A DNA stretch of 64,000 nucleotides from Ulota crispa. Taxonomy: Eukaryota > Streptophyta > Bryopsida > Orthotrichales > Orthotrichaceae. A model generated the notes under the pieces. The model searched no databases, was not told where the DNA came from, and was given only the letters and a program-made list of their open reading frames with translations. The stretch spans positions 6,650,727 through 6,714,726 of the forward strand of contig OY987245.1 in assembly GCA_963920765.1 (NCBI GenBank), given 5' to 3'. This document shows, one piece after another, positions 3,301 through 64,000 of this stretch. How positions within the stretch are numbered: the stretch's first letter is position 1; every line of letters begins with the position of its first letter. A program made the translations under genes and the position numbers.

Positions 3301-6300
3301 GTGATAAAAACATTTTTTTTTCATTTGTGCAAAACAAGGTCAATAGACTTTGAGCCTTCCTAGAGTAAAATTTTTGCTCTACACAAAAATGACTCTTTTG
3401 ATTATTCACAAGTATATGATGTTAGGTTCACTCACAAAAGTTTTCAAATGTAAATATAGAACCTAGCTTATTCTAAATCACCTTGCAATGCAAAGAGGTT
3501 TAATGAATTGGCAATACACTAGTCATTCTCTCATGATTTCTTGTGCAATGAAGGAATCTTTTATAAGAAATTTGAATGGTGAAAAGTTAGAGATAAACAT
3601 TTGGAATATGTGAAAAAAAGTTTCAAGAGCTTTGGATTTATAGATTGAAAAATAATAGGGCCTAAAGTTAGTGGAATCATTTTTTCTTGAAACTGCCCAA
3701 ATATAGTTAACAAAGTTTGACTCCCTTCAATATGTGATGTGAGAGCTTTTTTTTTTTTTTTTTGTTTTTTTGACAATTGTACACCATGCATTTTTAGTTA
3801 CATACGGCCAAATTTCAAAAGTTGATGAAAGTTTTAGCACAAAATTCTCCAAAGATTCTTGAATTGCCTAAGCTGCCCAATTTCTTTTGAGCAACATAAC
3901 ATTTGAATTGGGCATCTAGTTGAGGAAAAAATTACAATATCCACTTGGAAGATATATATTTGCACGTTGTTTAACAATTTTGAGAACATCCAATTAAAAT
4001 TAACATCATATGAATCTACCTAAGTTCTCAAGTGGCTATTGAGCAACCACTTGGTTCTTTAGGGGTTAAATTGACAAAATACTCTCACAAACGAGCTCAC
4101 AAATGTAAAATTCAGACGTCCCAAACTATATCTTTTTTCCCAATTTTATGAATATGGTGTTCACTACAATTTTTTCTTCTAGTGTTATAAAGAGCTTGGT
4201 GTGAAGCCCAAGGACTTATTGATGCTACCCTAAAATGTGACGGCATTCTTCTTTCTTCATCATACTACTAAAAGCACAGCAATCTCTATAATATCACATC
4301 TTGACCTTCGTAATACCACTTTTCTAGTGTTCATGATATCACATGTATAGTCTTTTTGATATTATCACATAGATACAATTTGAAAACTTATTGAAATTTT
4401 TACTTTATATTCTACCTAAAACATAAAAATCCTAATAAAATTCTAATGCTGAATGTATAGCATAGAGAGCCCAACCCCTATTAATTCTAAAATTGTAGAC
4501 TTACAAAATTAGAGGAGAACAATCCCTTATCTCTTCATATTCAGAAATTACATGTTTTAACAAATAAATAGAAGAAGCTTAGTTTGAGGGACTTGGCATG
4601 ATATTTAAGAGGTTATCTTTTGTTAAAGAGACTGCAAATGTTTGTTTCTCAAACCAACTATTACTAATTAGAATGTATTTAATACTAACATAAAATTTTG
4701 GTGGGGTGGGGTGCTGTTTAGATGACAAGGACCGGATCTTATTAACAACCATTTTGAGAACCGTGTATTGCATAGAGATGACAGTAGAAGGGTATGCATT
4801 GTCTGAGTCGGGTATCTACCTAACACCACCAATGGGAACCAGAGAAGAATATATGACCTACGTGGAAACATTTCCTGTGATCCCCAGCCCAGAAGCATTT
4901 GGGCTGCATTCAAATGCAGACATTACAAAGGATATGAATGGGACCACTTTGATCTTGCTATCTTTGCTGCTTGCATCTGCTGATGCCATTGGTAACTTTC
5001 TCTATTCAATATCAAAAGCCTCAAAAATAAAACTTCAACAATAAAAATGGAAATTCCTTAAAAGATGGAATCATTAAAATTTGGTTTAAAAAGAAGAAGA
5101 AGTATAATCTTTTTTTCCAAACATTGTGTTTTTTTTTCACTTCTTTAAGCTACTTGTGAAGAAGATTAAATTAATGCAATATTTACAAAACCTAAACTCT
5201 ATTTAACCCCTAAAGGATGTTGATACATTCAAAAGTGTTGGATGTATTCATACAAGGATCATTTAGTACTTGAAGAAATGACTCTGTGACAGATACCAAA
5301 ATCCTCCAAAAAATCTTAGATGATTAGTAATATGTTTATGACTTGGCTGAAAATTGGCAGCTCCAATGGGATTCATGTGCTACCCAAATACCCCATCCAT
5401 ATCCAACATAAGAGAGCTTATAAAATATAGCAACATCCTTTAGGGTTAACTTTGTTGTCATACACCACTCACAATATCTTATTGATTGAATCCAAATCAG
5501 ACACTGAACTTTGTATTTTTATCACCCATATACCAAGAGAATGATAAAGTCCAGCTCTCAGAATTTTAAGTGTGGATTTTTTTTTTAAAATTTTGGCTGA
5601 TGTGTACAAATTTTGGGCAAGAGCAGGAACTGGAGGGGAAGGGGGCGGAGGTGGGGGTGGAGGCGGAGGAATCAAGGCTGTGGTACTGGGGATGCTTTCA
5701 GTGCTGCCACCCAATTTTGACATTGAAGCCACAGAACTCAAGTACCCGGTCCTGTACGAGGAGAGCATGAACACGGTCCTCGCCCAAGAAATGACTCGCT
5801 TCAACAAGTTGCTCAATACGTGCGTCACCCTTCACAAACTCACTAATTACGACAACTATCAAGATAAGATAGTAGGAGTTATTGGCAATATCTTAGGGTT
5901 CTTAATCCTTAAATGTTTATGGTCTTTTTGAGCTTCTAGGAATTTGCTTTATATTGAACAAAAAGCCAGTATTTTAATTAGCTGTATAGTTTTTTTTTTA
6001 ATTGTAACTATACAAATTCAAACTAGGTATGTTGGAAATCATATGAGAAAAAACACAACAACACCACTTATGGATTGAAAGATTATAATGTTTAATCATG
6101 AGGGTGTTAAAACTGCAAAAATGACTTGAAGTCTTTCAATCCACTTTTCACATGTTGAATCTAAAAATTAGTCACCCAAAAAAAAAAAAAGGTTAAAGGA
6201 CATAACATAAATAACTCCAATCACTTTAAGTCTTTTCAAAATCTCTTCTACTATATTTTAAAATGATTTTCAGGTGTAAAATTTTCTCCAAGATTTAGTG

Positions 6301-9300
6301 TATTTGAGGCTTGTTTTCAAGAGTTCTCAACACAACAAAAAGTCAAGATCCTTGCACAAAATCTTGAATAGAAAAATCATATTCAATTATTTTCAAAATT
6401 AGGTTTTTGATGCTAAAACTAGATTTTAAAAAGGATAATTCATAAAAATATAAACTACTAAAAATAGCAACTTATTTAGGATTATTGAACTTCAAAGTAT
6501 TATACACCAAAAATTAAGTGCCTCAGGCATTTAGGGGTTAAAGAACTCTCTAACCTCTACTGCGCAAACGTTGGAAAATGCAACACAAGAATTGTATGAA
6601 CTACAAGTGGACAAAAATTATATAATTTTTGAATGCATAGGACTTATCGACATTCATTAACTATTGAAAGTTGTAAAATCTTTACTCATGTATCCACCAA
6701 TTGTATATATACTTAGAATTTGGACTGAAATGGGGTTGTGGTGAAAAATTAAAAAAAACCAGGATTCGAGGCTCCCTTCAGACAATTGAGAAGGCTATCG
6801 AAGGCTTGGTGCTCATGTCCGGGGCTCAGGAAGATGCCTTCCGGAGCATTAATGTCAACATGGTATCTGCTAATCCTTCAAATTCTGCCTACCTTATCAA
6901 CTCTACAATTCATAACAATTAAATATGGGAATTGATATGTGCAAACTCGGGCCGGTTGATATATGCGCATTTGGGGGAGGGGTAAATTTTAGATATTTAC
7001 CTTGAATTTAAAAAGTTTGAATTCAGATTTGGATTTAGAGGACTCAATTTAGTCTAAAATCATGAAGGAGGTTATAATTGAACAACGTTTAGTGAAATAG
7101 CTTAGCTAGGGGATAAATTACTATTTTTACCCTTGTTTGTAAAAAAAAGCTAAGCTTTTCCACTAGGCATTGTTCAATTATAACCTCCTTTAAAGTTCTA
7201 CACTAAATCAAGGTCTCTAAATCCAAATTTGAATTCAAACTTTCCAAATTTAGCTTGTGGATGGTAAACATCTAAAATCCCCCCCCCCCACCCTTGGTGT
7301 GCGTATATTAAACCATGGAAGTGCACATGTTAATTCTAGTAAACATATGATTCTTCAACAATTTTGACTTTGCATAGTTTTGTTGCTTGTGCTTAAATTG
7401 TGACATCACCACGCCACATACATTCATTGCTAGATTTATTAGTTTCCATTATAAGAATAATTGTGTCCACAACAATTAAAAAGAGTGTCCAAAGTGATTC
7501 ATTTCATTTGATTGCTTAGTCATTGTGAACTTAGTTATTTTCTAAATAATGTTCAAAGTTCTTCTATGCAAAAACATTAAATTTATATTTGTGAATATAT
7601 CACTTATGAATGTTGTTTTTAGATTCTTTTTTTATTAAACCCGTTCAAATTTGACCTTGCAAGTTATGGATTTGGTTGTTTTTGTGAAAAACTTCTCATT
7701 TTTAATGGCAATGAAATATTTCAATGCAAGTTGTTTTTCAGTAACTTGCTATGCATTTCACACTTGTTAAAAATTGCGACTAACTTTTATTGAGTTTGCA
7801 GTTTTTTTAATTTTTATAAAGTGATGTTTTTTTGATATGCAATGTTGTAAGCTAGAAATCAATTGCAAATTGATCATAATTGACAAATTCATAATGACTT
7901 GTGATTTTATTGTGAGCAGCTGCCAGCCATGTGGGCTAAGGTTTCCTATCCGTCTCTAAAGCCCCTTGCTTCATACATGAAGGATTTGTTGGAGCGTATT
8001 GATGTAAGCTTACAAAATACCTTTATTGTAATCACAATGGAAGTAGCAATATAGCATTAGAAATGACAAGTGTTCATACGTTTCAAAGTCCTGTCCTCTT
8101 CTAGGACCAATCAAAATCATAATTGCATGTTGTTGAATGTGAAAGTGTATTGAATTAATTAACTTCTAAGGAGCTAGAAGGTTCAAAGAGGATTATTAGA
8201 CATAATGTCAAGTTTTTTTTATGAACCCCTCAATGTTCAAATGTGCACTTTTTGGTTGATTGAGGAACTTGCCTTGACAAAGAGAAGCACTTACTATGAT
8301 TATTCTTTGAATAGCCAATAAAAAAGTGACATATTGCCTTGAACTTTGGACCTAAAATCAAGGTTTGAATATTGTGAATGTAGAGCCTTGTTAACATGGT
8401 CAACCACAAGAGTCATAAGAAATATTATCTCCATAACCACTACACTTTAAGATTTTTGGGCATAACCTCATTAGATGAATTGTGTTCAATCTTACTCAAC
8501 AAGGGCCACAAAAATTACATTAGTATCCAATAGCAACCCCAATTTTTGAAAAATCATATACATCTTCTTGTATACACAAAATTGGGTGCATGAAGGTTAT
8601 GGAAAAATAGCATCGTTTGCCACTTCCATGCGACATGTTATTTCACATAACTAGGCTCTACGCTCATGTTACTATTTTCAAAACCTCAACAAAGCCCATC
8701 TCTACCCATGTGGCAATCACTTGCTAAAAAAAGAAAAAAGACATGTCACTTCTTACAACATTGAACTAGTTTGTTTTCTCCCTTTCAAACCCTCGGTTGA
8801 ACATCAAGATTCAATCATTCATGTTATGTCCAATAACAAAAAATACAAAGATGTTTATAACATGCTTACTTCTCTTGAATTCTCTTAGCACGTTAATTTT
8901 CACAACAATATTATACTTTCACATTGCCTAGTTTCCATTCACAATCTAGGTTGAAATGATAATGTCAAAATTTTATATAGCATCATTTAATGATATATTT
9001 AAACCCTAAACTACAAAGATCTGTTACTTGTAAAATTTGGATCCTAATCTCACATTGCCTTCCTACTTTGATCTCATGTTGCCATTCGTCACTTCACTAA
9101 CACTAAAATAAATGGAGGAAGTAAAACACAAACATGAACCTTTGTGATACAAATTGATCCTTTGCAATGCAAATATGAATCTTCCAAGTCTTTTGTATGA
9201 AAAGCATGAATGTAGCTTGAGACAAGTTGTCTAAGAATTGTTTCCAATGCAATGCAGGTGCTACAAAAGTGGTTTGATATTGGGAGACCAGCAGTGAACT

Positions 9301-9752
9301 GGGTGAGCGGCTTCTTCTTTGCACAATCCTTCATGACGGCGGCGTTGCAAAACTATGCAAGGCGTCGAAAGTTGGCCATAGACGGCATAGGATTTGAGTT
9401 CTACATGCTGGACAGCGAGCCCACAGAGGTGCCTGCAGAAGGCGCCTACATCAAGGGCCTGTTTGTAGAGGGGTGCGCCTGGGACCATGGCAACAAGGTG
9501 CTATGCGAGTCCAAGCCCAAGATCCTGCACGTCCATGCCCCTTGCATCAAATTGCAGCCTGCAATGCTTGCAGACATTGTGCCAGGCAAGGTGTACAACT
9601 GCCCTGTGTACCGAACAGCCGAGCGGAGGGGCGTGTTGGCCACAACCGGGCACTCCACCAACTTCCTCATGAGCATTCGCATGCCAAGTGTTGATCCTCC
9701 CAGTCATTGGACCCGCCGTGGCGTTGCCATGCTCTGCAGCTTGAATGACTAA
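317..9752 (+). CDS. Axonemal inner-arm dynein heavy chain, C-terminal eight exons (5' part outside window)
   Basis: This is the motor subunit of a flagellar inner-arm dynein, an ATP-driven microtubule motor. Exons are 317-471, 1474-1712, 2286-2395, 4722-4991, 5627-5819, 6763-6862, 7920-8003 and 9258-9752. They join in frame through GT/AG junctions into 547 residues ending at TAA. Exon 1 has the AAA6-region motif [13 protein letters not shown]. Exon 2 has [12 protein letters not shown], exon 3 [12 protein letters not shown] in the variant form [12 protein letters not shown], exon 4 [12 protein letters not shown], and exon 5 [13 protein letters not shown]. Exon 8 holds the dynein C-terminal domain, with GHSTNF and the ending [15 protein letters not shown]. 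These are hallmarks of axonemal heavy chains. The family runs to about 4000 residues, so most of the gene lies to the left. The DNAH1/3/7/12-like single-headed inner-arm group is my best guess; the exact paralogue is not resolved. A ten-glycine run in exon 5 expands a loop that is glycine-rich in relatives. Five of seven introns carry mobile elements. Confidence 0.93.
1789..2041. mobile_element. MITE with CACCATATTTG ends, dynein intron 2
   Basis: Terminal inverted repeats start CACCATATTTGTTAAATTGG and return as the complement at 2015-2041. The inside is non-coding and matches copies at 14919-15169 and 30429-30677. All three share a CTCATGTGAGGGCACGTGTA-like core and a palindrome around GGTGATCACC. 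No transposase is present. The superfamily is not settled because no clear target duplication is seen. Confidence 0.8.
2461..2692. mobile_element. TTAA-flanked miniature element (232 bp), dynein intron 3
   Basis: It starts TTAA-CCCCTAAACATCAC and ends GGGCCCTTTAGGGG-TTAA. It is non-coding. An inverted copy of the same family lies at 22452-22682, with shared internal blocks such as CGGCCGTATGTATGG and GGTTGCGACCGTATTTG. TTAA flanks with CCC-type ends are the piggyBac-superfamily signature. Confidence 0.8.
2939..4159. mobile_element. CACCATAT-end MITE split by a TTAA element, dynein intron 3
   Basis: The left end is CACCATATTTGTTAAATTGG at 2939 and the right end the matching complement at 4132-4159. 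Outer parts match the intact 247-bp relative at 12090-12336, including blocks around TTTGGTGATTTAAAGTGAA and AAAATACTC. The 972-bp TTAA element 3098-4069 interrupts it, which is why this copy is 1.2 kb long. Confidence 0.8.
3098..4069. mobile_element. TTAA-flanked element (972 bp) nested in a MITE
   Basis: TTAA-TCCCTAAAGGAC opens it and GGTTCTTTAGGGG-TTAA closes it. The inside is non-coding and collinear with 55074-56039 (966 bp) and with the left two thirds of 46757-48569. The ORF-like stretch at 3561-3791 is low-complexity and has no homolog I recognise. Confidence 0.8.
5203..5449. mobile_element. TTAA-flanked miniature element (247 bp), dynein intron 4
   Basis: Ends are TTAA-CCCCTAAAGGATGTTG and CAACATCCTTTAGGG-TTAA, giving a terminal inverted repeat of about 15 bp with one base missing. 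It has no coding capacity and no second copy of its interior was noticed in the window. Confidence 0.75.
5902..6541. mobile_element. TTAA-flanked element (640 bp), dynein intron 5
   Basis: The left end TTAA-TCCTTAAATG is a degraded match to the complement of the right end, GCATTTAGGGG-TTAA. The right boundary is clear and the left is inferred from this match. It lies wholly inside the intron, 80 bases after the exon 5 donor. Confidence 0.5.
6927..7338. mobile_element. Fold-back element, dynein intron 6
   Basis: Long inverted arms face each other. On the left, blocks such as GAGGTTATAATTGAACAA and GGATTTAGAG occur; on the right their complements occur in reverse order. Termini read GGGAATTGATATGTGC and the approximate complement GCACATGTTAATTCTA. 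A related right half lies at about 54725-54989. Non-coding. The outer boundaries are approximate. Confidence 0.65.
8004..9257 (+). other. Dynein intron 7, no insertion recognised
   Basis: This is the longest intron without a recognisable inverted-repeat element. It is AT-rich and multiply stopped in all frames. The donor is GAT|GTAAGC and the acceptor AATGCAG|GTG. I see no gene in it. Confidence 0.6.
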
Positions 9753-28745: not shown

Positions 28746-28866
28746 ATCACTTCCTTATCATTTCCTTATCACTTCCTTATCCTTTACTTATCACTTCCTT
28801 ATCACTTACTTATCACTTCCTTATCACTTACTTATCACTTCCTTATCACTTACTTATCACTTCCTT
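28746..28866. repeat. Short tandem repeat, 11-bp unit CTTATCACTTC
   Basis: About eleven units of 11 bp. Most alternate between CTTATCACTTC and CTTATCACTTA, so the pattern becomes a 22-bp higher-order unit in the right half. Confidence 0.85.
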
Positions 28867-30067
28867 AGAGGTTTTCATTGTCATACATGATCATATTTTA
28901 TCATTTTCATCTTTGAACTTCTTCTTCCTTTCCTTAACCTCATAGCTCATCTATAAGTGCTAACATAGTTGACAAATTTCAAATGTTTTGATATTTTGCA
29001 ACTGATATTGATATAGCTAAGGCCTTGGGGCTATAAATTGTATATTTAACTAAGGTCTTCATAGCTTATATGCTATATCTTTTGCAAATTTTGATCAAAT
29101 GTAACAATAATTATACTACTAGTAAAGGTTTTTAAGGCCTTTCTTGCAGTACTTATAAAGTTGGAATTGAAACTAAACCCTAAAAGATATGAAATTTTCA
29201 AGATAAAGAAGTAACAATAGGGGCAGAGTGATAATACTGTAAATTACATGTATGGCTTTTGAACCACAACTTGGTTTACTCTAAAAATTCCAATGCTTGA
29301 AACTTGTAATGGAACACATACGTCATTCAAATTTTATAAGAATCTAACAAAGATTGCACCTGCTAGAACTTGTGTAAACGTAGAAAATTACACAGTTTGA
29401 GTTTCAACCTTTACTCCATAGAGGTTTATGAAGTGTAATAAAAAATGGTCATGGTAAAAAAAATACTCATAAAACATTTAATGGCAACTGGTTCTTAAAC
29501 TCAGTTTCATTTTTTTCCTGTATTTATTGAAGTAAGGTTTTACTTTCTTGTAGCCATTTTATTTTTAAATGTTGCCTTGCAGACTTTAGTAAGGGAATTG
29601 AGACTTGAGATACAGTGTGGATTGTGCATTGGTCTTGTTTGGATCTCTCACTAGAAAAAGCAACCTTGTTAGGTCCTATTATTGATTTTGTTTTGATTTT
29701 TTTCATCTAAAATCTTTATGAACTAGGTTGCTTTAAAATTCATTGCGGTATCACTTAATAACAAAGTTCTTTATCAGTGAGAAATTCAAGACTGATGTTT
29801 GAATATTTACTGCAAAAAGTTCCAAAAGCTCAAATTTCAAATTCTTACCCGTATTTATGTTGAGCGTTACAAAAAAGTATCAAGTTATTTTCTATAGTTT
29901 AGAGCAAATTCTTGTGTACAAACTAGCTCATTACTTTTCAAGTACTACATTTACTTGTTGTAGAAGAAGCTTTGCATGTGCAACAAAAAATAAAATGTCA
30001 TTATTAGCATTCATATCATGAAATTATGCCCAATGAAAATTGACCTTGCAAGGCTTGATGCATAGTG
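28867..30067. other. No gene recognised
   Basis: AT-rich, multiply stopped sequence without clear element ends. Confidence 0.4.
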
Positions 30068-36568: not shown

Positions 36569-36708
36569 TTTGAAGAGCAAGGGACATATACGTTTGATGA
36601 GCAAGGGACATACACATTTGATGAGCAAGGGACATACACGTTTGATGAGCAAGGGACATACACGTTTGATGAGCAAGGGACATACACGTTTGATGAGCAA
36701 GGGACATG
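36569..36708. repeat. Tandem repeat, 24-bp unit, about 5.8 copies
   Basis: The unit begins TTTGATGAGCAAGGG and ends ACATACACG. Copies differ by one or two bases. Because 24 is a multiple of three, both strands stay open across it and produce spurious peptide repeats (minus strand, eight residues per unit). Confidence 0.9.
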
Positions 36709-52784: not shown

Positions 52785-53876
52785 GTAGCTTGTAGACTCC
52801 ATCCTATTTTTGGTTGGAGTTGAGTGTTGCCCCTATGCATGGATTTTGCAGCATCATGAGATTTTTTTGTAGGCAAAAAGTCTTCATTGACATTTTTTTT
52901 AAATATCTGAATAACCATTACCATTACTTAATTATTGCATGAAATTGGATTAGACAATACCTCAAATAATTTTAAATTGATGACATCATTTTCAATTTGA
53001 CAATAATTTTATGGAAGCTTAGACTGCTATGCAATTTTCATTATTGCAATCTGACATTTTTTGAAAAAAATCCCCTTTTTTTTCTATAGGCTTGAAGCTC
53101 ACCTTTTTTTTGAGGCAATTGGGCCTTAAAATGCCCCCAAAGAAAAAAACACTGGTGCAGACTGCAGATTCATTGCAGAATATTTTTCTGAGAAAACGAC
53201 CAAATTCTTCTAGAATTTTGCTAACTTAGACCGGCCAGAAAATTTACAGACAATCTCCACAGCAACAGCAACAACAACAACAGAAGTCACAAAGTCGTTA
53301 GATTCCCAGACTTCCAGGCTTGCAAGATGTTGTACTTCAGGTACAACAGCTTGCTAACGCATAATTGACAGAACAACCGCCGGTCCTCAGCAATGATACT
53401 GTAGTAAGTTAGTGTAGTACTACTGTACTAGTAACTGTAAAAGCATGATGCCGGGCTTATTTAAGGAAATTATATCATTATAATATATGATCAGCTGATC
53501 GAGTCACACACGCTGTAACAAGAATCTTGAATGCAGCACGCACAGAAGTACAGTACATTAGACGATGAATGAATGCAGAGCCTTCTCATTACTTAACACT
53601 AATCCCAGTAATCAGCTGCCTAGCCTGCCTAAGTAAGACGAAACACAGGGCTAGATATGAGTTTATCTAATCTAATGCAAAACACCCCAAGCAAGCACGA
53701 AGTTTGATCGAATAAGCCTCGAAAAGCAGTTAGTACTGGTTGAAAACCGGGATACGTTCAAAAAGTTCACTGCAAAGTTTGGATCACATAAAAGCAAAAT
53801 GACTGGGTGACGATGTAAACCACGCCAGAGCGATTGGCGTAATCTGGAGCAAGTGAGGGTGGGTTGGAAGCAAGCT

Positions 53877-53953
53877 ATTCCTGCCTCGTCAGTAGCTCCT
53901 TACCGCAGAACCAGCTTGGGTTCGAGAGGGATGAAGCTAGTGAGAGGCAGGAA
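53877..53953 (-). ncRNA. MiRNA-precursor-like hairpin A
   Basis: Arms are 53877-53906 and 53924-53953 with a 17-base loop. In minus-strand sense the 5' arm begins TTCCTGCCTCTCACTAGC. By hand, 28 positions align with 24 pairs (one G:U), four single mismatches and one single-base bulge. The arm 53924-53953 is identical to 54140-54169 in hairpin B, while the opposite arm and loop have changed. I do not recognise a known miRNA family. Confidence 0.5.
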
Positions 53954-54088
53954 GAGGCTGAGTGTTCCATAGAAAAGTACCGCTAGGGTACTGATGATCT
54001 GGTTGCGTGCTTGTGTGATTCGGAACTGGGACTAGATCGAAATAGGAGGGAGGGAGAGAGAGAGAGAGAAAGAAGTGGTGTGCGTGCT

Positions 54089-54169
54089 ATTCCTGGCCAT
54101 CAGTAGCTCCTTCCCTCCCAGACTTCTACGCCGGAGGCAGAGAGGGATGAAGCTAGTGAGAGGCAGGAA
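54089..54169 (-). ncRNA. MiRNA-precursor-like hairpin B
   Basis: Arms are 54089-54119 and 54140-54169 with a 20-base loop. Of 30 aligned positions 26 pair (three as G:U), with four isolated symmetric mismatches. Two of them, C opposite C at position 14 and A opposite A at position 22 of the minus 5' arm, recur at the same places in hairpin A. A stem of about 30 pairs with few small mismatches meets the usual plant miRNA precursor shape. Confidence 0.5.
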
Positions 54170-54511
54170 GAGACACGGCACGCTTCTTCGATCACAGGCC
54201 ACAAAAAAAACAAAATTCCAGGACTTCCAAGCTAAGGTCGCATGATCCTGCAGAAACGCACCAATAGTATAATAGTATACTCCGATCCTCTCGGTCTTGC
54301 ACGAAGCATGCATGCAGAAGAGGCTGCATGCTTCTGAGGCCGGCATTGGAAATGGCGGAACACGAGACAGGACTGAGATGGAATCCCGAGCAAGCAAGCA
54401 CCCGAGTGGGACTGCTCGCGAGAGAGCGAAGCGTAAGCGCAATCGCCAAGGATGGTTGAGATTGGAGCCGGCGATGGTGGAGCTTGAGAGAGGCGCCGTG
54501 GTGCGTTCAGC

Positions 54512-54517
54512 TTTATA
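54512..54517 (-). promoter_or_regulatory. TATA-like box upstream of hairpins
   Basis: The minus strand reads GCTATAAAGC. It lies between a GC-rich upstream block and a CT-rich stretch that could hold the start site near 54480. This is position-only evidence. Confidence 0.3.
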
Positions 54518-54724
54518 GCAAGCAAGCAAGCGCTGCAGGCGTGCCTGGCCCGGCTTTTCACTTGGCCTCGCCACTCGCAAGGGCGGCCCCTTGGAAATTG
54601 CATTGCGCGCCCAAACATGCTACTCACCTAAACTCCCCACCCCAAAATCTCAAGTTTCTTAACCCCTAAAACAGGGTATAATTTTGGTTTCTGAGTAAGG
54701 TAGATAAACCCAATCCCGTTCGTC

Positions 54725-61452: not shown

Positions 61453-61567
61453 GTCCCCACCCCCTATCCTCGTGCCCCCTATCCTTGTGCCCCCTATCCT
61501 TATGCCCCCTATCCTTGTGCCCCATATCCATATGCCCCTCCATCCCCGTGACCCCCTATTCCCGTGA
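61453..61567. repeat. Minisatellite, 15-bp unit CCCTATCCTTGTGCC, block 1
   Basis: About seven units, the last ones degraded to CCCGTGACC forms. Confidence 0.85.
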
Positions 61568-61678
61568 CCCTTAAATTTTATTACTTTAGTTAAATTTGAA
61601 TTCCACTCCCCGTGCCCCTCAAATCATACTACTTTAGTTAAACTTAAACTCTACTCCTTGTGCCCCCCAAATTTTACT

Positions 61679-62541
61679 TTAACCTCTAAAGCCCCAAATT
61701 CCGCTTGAGGGACTTTTGGGATTTTGGGTAGTCTCGTGTGACCTCAAATTTTTACATGAGTTTTTTAAACTTTTTATGAATGTGTAGGAATGTATAAGGT
61801 TTGTGGGATGCAAAAAATAATGTGATTATGTCACACTGTTTACAAGTTATGGGCTTTTTTGGCCAAAAACAATTTGAAGGGTAGTTTGGGCAAGGCAGGG
61901 GAGCAAGGAGGGGTTGCCACATGTTGCTCTTGTGGTCCCCATTATTCCCCTATCATTTCCAATTAGGAGGTCAGATTAGGCTTTGGGAGCTTCTAAATTT
62001 TAGAGTTTTTGAGGTTTTTAATTTTTTTTCTTTTGGCATTTGAAGTACATGTTCATCTTCAAACATATTGTTTGGCTTTTCCATATTTAAAACATGTGGT
62101 TGTAAACTTCACTCAAAAATGGTCATAGTGTATTTGCAAAACTTGTCATATAGTGGCATTGCAATATTTTTTAGGATGTGTTTTGTGTCTTTGATTGCCT
62201 TGAAAATTGACATACAAAGGTCTAACTTGATCACTTATAAGACGAAATTACAACTTTAAGGTTTGTAGTTCAAAAAAAATCATCAAATGTTAGTCAAAGC
62301 CATCTAAAATTTTCAGGCACAATGGAAAAAAAAAAACTTTCCCTTCAAATGCTCAAAACATTCAATCCAAATAGTCAAATGTCACAAAATTTGTACTATT
62401 TCTTCTTCTACAAGTGCATTACAAGATCCTATGGTTAGATTTTCAAGAACAGCATTTTGTCAAATTTTTTGGTGAACGCAGCAGTATGGGCAGTTTTGAG
62501 TGGTTTTTGGCAGAAAATGGCCTTGGTAGTTTAGGGGTTGA
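61679..62541. mobile_element. TTAA-flanked element (863 bp) in the repeat array
   Basis: TTAA-CCTCTAAAGCCCC opens and TAGTTTAGGGG-TTGA closes, so the right TTAA has one transition. Interior parts resemble the right arm of the 34184-35103 subtype. Confidence 0.65.
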
Positions 62542-62767
62542 TCCGTTTATAACTTTAGTCAAACTTGAAATCTACTCTATTTTTAAGTGGATCTAAGATG
62601 GACTATGCGGAATTGTCCTCCACACCTATGGAACCGTCGAGTGCGACCACCACCACCATTGCCTGATATTCAATTATTACCTAGTTTATGCACTAGTTGT
62701 ACCAACATAGGTAATAAAAATATCCTTGCAATAAACAAATTGTTGCAATAGCAATTTTATTTTTGTG

Positions 62768-62893
62768 TCTCCTATCTCCTTGCCCCCTATCCTCGTGCCC
62801 CCTATTTCCATGCCCCCTAATCCTCGTGCCATCTATCCCCGTGCCATCTATCCTTGTGCCATCTATCCCCATGCCCACTATCCCTATGCCCTC
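62768..62893. repeat. Minisatellite, 15-bp unit, block 2
   Basis: About eight units of the CCCTATCC(T/C)(T/C)GTGCC type. Because the unit is five codons long, both strands stay open (for example minus 62693-62878) without being genes. Confidence 0.85.
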
Positions 62894-63152
62894 TTTTTGC
62901 CAAGAGAAAGTTGTAGTGCAACTGCTAGTGACAATGCAACTGCCAATGATCTATTGCTAACGTTTGCTAAAGAGTTGTAGGTGATTTTACTTTATTTCAT
63001 TTATAACTTTAGTTAAACTTGTACTTTACTCTATTTTGTAGGTGGAACTAAAGATGAACTAAAGATGGACTTTGCATAATCGTCATCCTCACCTATAGAA
63101 TTGTCAAGTGCGACCACCACCACCACCACCACTATTGCTGCCAATTCAATTA

Positions 63153-63735
63153 TTATCTCCTAAAGGCCCATTGTCCCTTCGGAGGACAAATGGAATTTTG
63201 GGCATGTACCTATGGCTAAACTACTTTGTTTAATTTTTTGAAACTTTTATAGAAGATGGGGAATTCAAAGATTTGTGTGGGCATCTAATTTTTACCTCAT
63301 TCCAACATTTATTGAAGAAGTTAAAAACGAATTTATGAGAAGTTTTAGTTTGCGGGTAGGTGTGGAGAATCTCAAAACAATGCCTATACGCAAACTAAAA
63401 CTTCTCACAACTTTCATCTCATCTATCAAAATTGAATGAGTAAAAGCTCCCCACATCTATATAAGTCTAAAGAACCTATTTCAGATTTTTATTTGGAAAA
63501 AACGCAATTTTTACAGAAGTTTTTGGGCTGCCCAGAGTCCCCTATTTTTTAGTTATTCATTTTTAACTTCTTCAATAAATGTCAGAATGAAGATTTTTTT
63601 ATATTCCCACGTACATCTTTGAATTCCTCACCTTCAATAAAAGTTTCAAAAAATTGCGCTAAGTAGTTTAGCCATAGATACATGCCCGAAATTCCATTTG
63701 TCCCTCAAAAGTGCCCTTGGGCCTTTAGGGGTTAA
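63153..63735. mobile_element. TTAA-type fold-back element (583 bp) in the repeat array
   Basis: TTAT-CTCCTAAAGGCCCA opens (TTAA altered) and TTGGGCCTTTAGGGG-TTAA closes. Arms are those of the palindromic subtype. The uninterrupted relative of its flanks lies at 62670-62710. Confidence 0.75.
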
Positions 63736-63873
63736 TCTACTAGTTTACGTACTTGTTGTACCAACAGAAGCAACAACAACATCCTTACAACAAACAAATT
63801 GTCACAATAGCAACTTTATCATAAAATGTGCCAATTTTAAAAATTCAAATTGTTTTATCCGCAAACCGCTAGC

Positions 63874-64000
63874 ACTATCCCTATATCTCCTATCCTTGTG
63901 CCCCCCTTAGCCCTGTGTCCCCCTATCCTTGTGTCCCCTATCTTCGTGCCCTCTATCCTTGTGCTCCCCTATCTTTGTGCCTCCTATCCTTGTGCCTCAT
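63874..64000. repeat. Minisatellite, 15-bp unit, block 3 (runs off the window)
   Basis: At least eight units of the CCTATCCTTGTGCC type, with some one-base length changes. Confidence 0.85.

Follow-up and report, generated by a model that had tools for sequence, protein, structure and literature searches.

The closest described system to the hairpin pair analysed here is the miR1219 cluster of mosses. A passage of PMC2358906, citing Talmor-Neiman 2006, describes miR1219 as clustered in Physcomitrella, a passage of PMC3433442, citing the same work, refers to a cluster formed by miR1219a and b in moss, and an entry of PMC3464803 lists a Physcomitrella transcript that contains a miR1219 precursor as well as a target site. 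According to the relevant passage of PMC12014491, the PpARFb genes of Physcomitrella carry miR1219 target sequences and are regulated by miR1219. Clustered MIR395 and tandem MIR156, as excerpted from PMC2358906, are similar to the present pair in having nearby hairpins of one orientation that encode the same miRNA, and are different families. The hairpins studied here lie in the window, i.e., the whole 64-kb stretch of Ulota crispa DNA that was analysed, which belongs to contig C4 of a 275-Mb assembly. MIR160, MIR167 and TAS3 tasiARF are also small RNAs acting on mRNAs of AUXIN RESPONSE FACTOR (ARF) genes, and they differ in acting via other sequences and sites; when all Rfam families were searched, no family besides MIR1219 (RF03849) reached its gathering score in the window, and the MIR390 matches in the genome all stayed under the cut-off of 77 bits (best 53.2). 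No tRNA was found in the 64 kb.

The window hairpins share with the moss miR1219a/b cluster the full-length match to the MIR1219 model, the unpaired positions, the clustering and the complementarity to ARF genes. They differ in that two tandem pairs are present here and one of three similar ARFs has no good site, Physcomitrella being compared through the family model and the published descriptions. Tandem clustering, which is a known trait of miR1219a/b and not a strictly defining one, was found in both pairs. The window hairpins are almost certainly a MIR1219 tandem pair and an ordinary member of this known moss miRNA family. A preliminary description of the DNA had not recognised the family and implied that it was new, which does not hold because the MIR1219 family, its clustering and its ARF targets are already in the literature.

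Family, strand and folding of the hairpin pair

The features of both loci and of the candidate targets are collected in Table 1. Of the four genome hairpins, two (one of them in the window) scored under the Rfam gathering score, which counts against the MIR1219 reading, and the low-scoring window hairpin taken alone would favour a new, undescribed miRNA family. This hairpin nevertheless matches RF03849 over its full length and shares all 33 nt of its arm with the hairpin above the cut-off, and the complementarity to ARF genes is consistent with the miR1219 targets in the literature, so we regard a new family as extremely unlikely. Seven of the 14 control genomes gave MIR1219 matches at a loose E-value limit of 10, and none gave a match over the cut-off. 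A full-text literature search with the presumed mature 21-mer returned no paper, and the matches to its 11-mer core look unrelated, as judged from the listings.

Table 1. Positions of the MIR1219 hairpins, their parts and the candidate ARF sites. Positions without a contig name are those of the window.
Feature	Position	Strand	Basis
MIR1219 hairpin, first in sense order	54085..54174	-	RF03849 match in Rfam (83.6 bits), over the gathering score of 79 bits
MIR1219 hairpin, second in sense order	53873..53958	-	Full-length RF03849 match in Rfam (69.1 bits, E 9.8e-15), under the gathering score of 79 bits
Presumed mature miR1219, 21 nt, 5' arm, ends inferred	54149..54169	-	Within the 24-column invariant stretch; ARF-site complementarity
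Presumed mature miR1219, identical copy, ends inferred	53933..53953	-	Alignment of the four hairpins
Star (3') arm, first hairpin, limits approximate	54088..54112	-	Predicted pairing
Star (3') arm, second hairpin, limits approximate	53877..53901	-	Predicted pairing
TATAAA, candidate TATA box for the primary transcript	54512..54517	-	Motif match only; sole TATAWA within 1.1 kb sense-upstream
MIR1219 hairpin, C1 pair	C1:23131486-23131574		RF03849, 85.0 bits, over the cut-off
MIR1219 hairpin, C1 pair	C1:23131649-23131733		RF03849, 74.7 bits, below the cut-off
Candidate ARF site	C9:9332172-9332192		Penalty 5; mismatches at miRNA positions 5, 19, 20, 21 (assumed register)
Candidate ARF site	C7:10578516-10578536		Penalty 5; mismatches at miRNA positions 4, 10, 20 (assumed register)

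The model score of the sense strand exceeded that of the antisense strand in all four genome hairpins (85/50, 83.6/49.1, 74.7/50.4 and 69.1/37.1 bits). The minus strand of the window is thus the better-supported one, and the frozen arm is therefore the 5' arm. Compared with 200 dinucleotide shuffles, the segment 53870-53960 folded with z scores of -5.60 on the plus and -4.62 on the minus strand, no shuffle being equally stable on either, and the segment 54082-54176 with -3.46 and -3.83 (2 and 0 equally stable shuffles, respectively). Its folding energy of -45.8 on the plus versus -40.9 on the minus strand makes 53870-53960 favour the plus strand, against the minus-strand reading. Stable folding of the plus-strand transcripts, together with their weak MIR1219 matches (49.1 bits at 54085-54174 and 37.1 bits at 53873-53958), would suit a bidirectional locus in which both strands are processed and the plus-strand product is functional. 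A near-palindromic hairpin, however, yields such a plus-strand fold and match automatically, and when both strands of the 13 stretches of the ARF loci were scanned with the frozen arm alone, sites of penalty 5 or less were found only on the coding strand of two ARF genes. A bidirectional locus is accordingly very unlikely, and a plus-strand reading of the hairpins was rejected on the model scores and the targets.

The observations of the preliminary description were confirmed with corrections, and its interpretation is partly supported. The two tandem hairpins with a common arm stood, both segments folding more stably than shuffles on both strands, as it had proposed to check; the shared arm, given there as identical over 30 bases, is a perfect direct repeat of 33 nt (53924-53956 and 54140-54172) with a spacing of 216 bases. 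Stable hairpins with few mismatches in the miRNA/star duplex are among the plant miRNA annotation criteria, and both window hairpins have these properties. The C/C and A/A mismatches reported in both stems are indeed there and are unpaired positions in the MIR1219 family model as well; across the genome, on the sense strand, C/C is kept in four of four hairpins and A/A in three, with G/A in the fourth (C1_A), as read off the alignment and the predicted pairs. The loops differ and the flanks do not align, as had been described. The opposite arms, of which 16 nt are repeated at 94% between the two window hairpins, were said to have drifted with compensation; the pairing was confirmed and true compensation is slight, with double-sided changes in 2 of 29 predicted pairs of the four-hairpin alignment, both close to the loop, and a slightly unfavourable covariation term of +0.5. 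The structure therefore rests on folding stability and the family model, not on covariation. As for the TATA-like box, the TATAAA motif lies 343 nt upstream of the first hairpin on the sense side (54517-54512), is a motif match only and may differ from the box that was meant. A minus-strand open reading frame of 182 aa spanning the region (54580-54032) was taken as a chance frame, and its stop-to-stop form had no Pfam match at E 0.01.

Elsewhere in the window, dynein heavy chain exons were found on the plus strand at 4694-9752 (AAA_lid_11 at 4694-5041, Dynein_C at 5548-5928 and 9216-9749) by a Pfam search covering 6 of the 19 stop-to-stop open reading frames. Flowering plants are not known to have dynein heavy chains, and these exons fit a plant with motile (swimming) sperm. 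Two near-perfect tandem repeats were also present, each with 96% matches, one of 22 bp at 28746-28867 (5.5 copies) and one of 24 bp at 36569-36707 (5.8 copies). Several tandem repeat arrays with periods between 15 and 48 lie in 61460-63996, and they are mostly built from related units, C-rich and of the CCTATCCTTGTGCCC type.

Genome copies and conservation of the 5' arm

At least four MIR1219 hairpins are present in the genome, namely the window pair and a second tandem pair in the same order on contig C1 (C1:23131486-23131733); the count is a lower bound because scoring covered 56 of the 25,413 first-look candidates. Between the two loci, sequence identity is 85.6% and 84.6% for hairpins of the same order and 77.4% and 76.9% for crosswise comparisons, which indicates that the pair probably predates the split of the two loci. 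An ancestral hairpin pair was thus probably duplicated as a unit, judging from these identities. No shared gene order was detected between the window and about 99 kb around C1:23.13 Mb, where the blastn rows above 45 bits, which are those inspected among 263 in all, consist of dispersed repeats and the hairpins.

These dispersed repeats, many of them common to the surroundings of both loci, are what would speak for a transposon-derived inverted repeat giving heterogeneous siRNAs. Against it, two loci were found (a lower bound), only the hairpins match the C1 region within 53500-54700 (blastn rows above 45 bits), and one arm is frozen while the loops have diverged; a transposon origin appears exceedingly improbable. 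Many genome copies, which the preliminary description had named as evidence against a miRNA, were likewise not seen, the hairpins numbering four at two loci on the same lower bound.

The MIR1219 hairpins are instead distinguished by their 5' arm, in which 24 consecutive columns are invariant across all four aligned hairpins, as expected of the conserved 5' arm that holds the small RNA in this family. The earlier proposal that this arm was frozen by selection on a mature small RNA is well supported by the MIR1219 matches, the invariant columns and two homologous ARF sites. A search with the 24-base arm pattern, allowing up to three mismatches, returned seven places in the genome, four of them being the MIR1219 hairpins. 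The other places, all on the minus strand and selected for their resemblance to the arm, are absent among the MIR1219 matches. C1:39985716-39985739 (2 mismatches to the arm) and C2:34690862-34690885 (3 mismatches) are purine-rich and repeat-like in short excerpts, and C3:24941927-24941950 (3 mismatches to the target-sense arm) is neither an ARF_AD nor a MIR1219 match and could be another target or chance.

Candidate ARF targets

When the genome was searched with the ARF_AD domain, 13 exon matches were obtained and grouped as seven ARF loci; none of the 14 control genomes matched. Sites complementary to the frozen arm with a penalty of 5 were found in two of the seven loci, at 9.33 Mb of contig C9 and 10.58 Mb of contig C7, both at the same protein position immediately before RVSPWEIEPFV. 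Among 1000 dinucleotide-shuffled 21-mers, 32 had any site with penalty 5 or less in the ARF loci and none had two, the register of the real 21-mer having been picked after an earlier scan with the frozen arm whose control was four shuffles only. The predicted pairing is mediocre to moderate overall, and the mismatch at position 10 of the C7 site would hinder slicing. The ARF sites are also not the best matches of the arm in the genome, where penalties of 2, 3 and 5 were obtained at C1:39.99 Mb, C2:34.69 Mb and C3:24.94 Mb, places outside ARF genes that were chosen for arm resemblance. In a third ARF of similar type (C9:9.96 Mb), the penalty at the homologous position (about 4560-4620 within C9:9958500-9968000) was 11.5, with values of 10.5 to 14 across the registers tried, and this gene may escape miR1219 control. 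The other four ARF loci had no site better than 8.

The KLFG motif occurs in open frames of the three similar ARF loci, only motif-filtered frames having been looked at and the link between frame and gene being assumed. As excerpted, PMC6797205 describes K/RLFG as the motif of repressor ARFs and PMC10299833 reports KLFG in PpARFb2. The candidate target ARFs are probably class-B repressors, given KLFG in the same loci. In phmmer searches, a short ARF domain piece ranked 6sdg first, followed by Arabidopsis ARF5 and then ARF1, and a comparison piece from another ARF matched 6sdg at E 4.2e-5 and ARF1 at about 0.06, without ARF5; this ranking, coming from short pieces, does not favour the class-B call or settle the class. 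Of these proteins, 6sdg is a liverwort class-B ARF, ARF5 belongs to class A and ARF1 to class B.

Proposed circuit and its meaning

A primary transcript of the minus strand would fold into the two MIR1219 hairpins, and DICER-LIKE processing would free the same small RNA of about 21 nt from both 5' arms. Once in ARGONAUTE, this miR1219 would pair with the coding-sequence site in the ARF mRNAs, probably those of class-B repressors. The ARF level would thereby be lowered and auxin sensitivity set, in the way the literature describes for miR1219 acting on PpARFb in Physcomitrella. Two copies per locus and a duplicated pair elsewhere may give a higher dosage of one small RNA. A possible, though on balance rather unlikely, reading is ongoing remodelling of the miR1219-ARF circuit in this lineage, with the tandem pair duplicated and one of three similar, probably repressor-type ARFs, which lacks the site, escaping control.

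The known picture of the MIR1219 family is unchanged by this finding. The three similar ARF genes allow presence and absence of the site to be compared, and the two miR1219 tandem pairs of this genome show strong retention of the mature arm alongside turnover of the loops and flanks.
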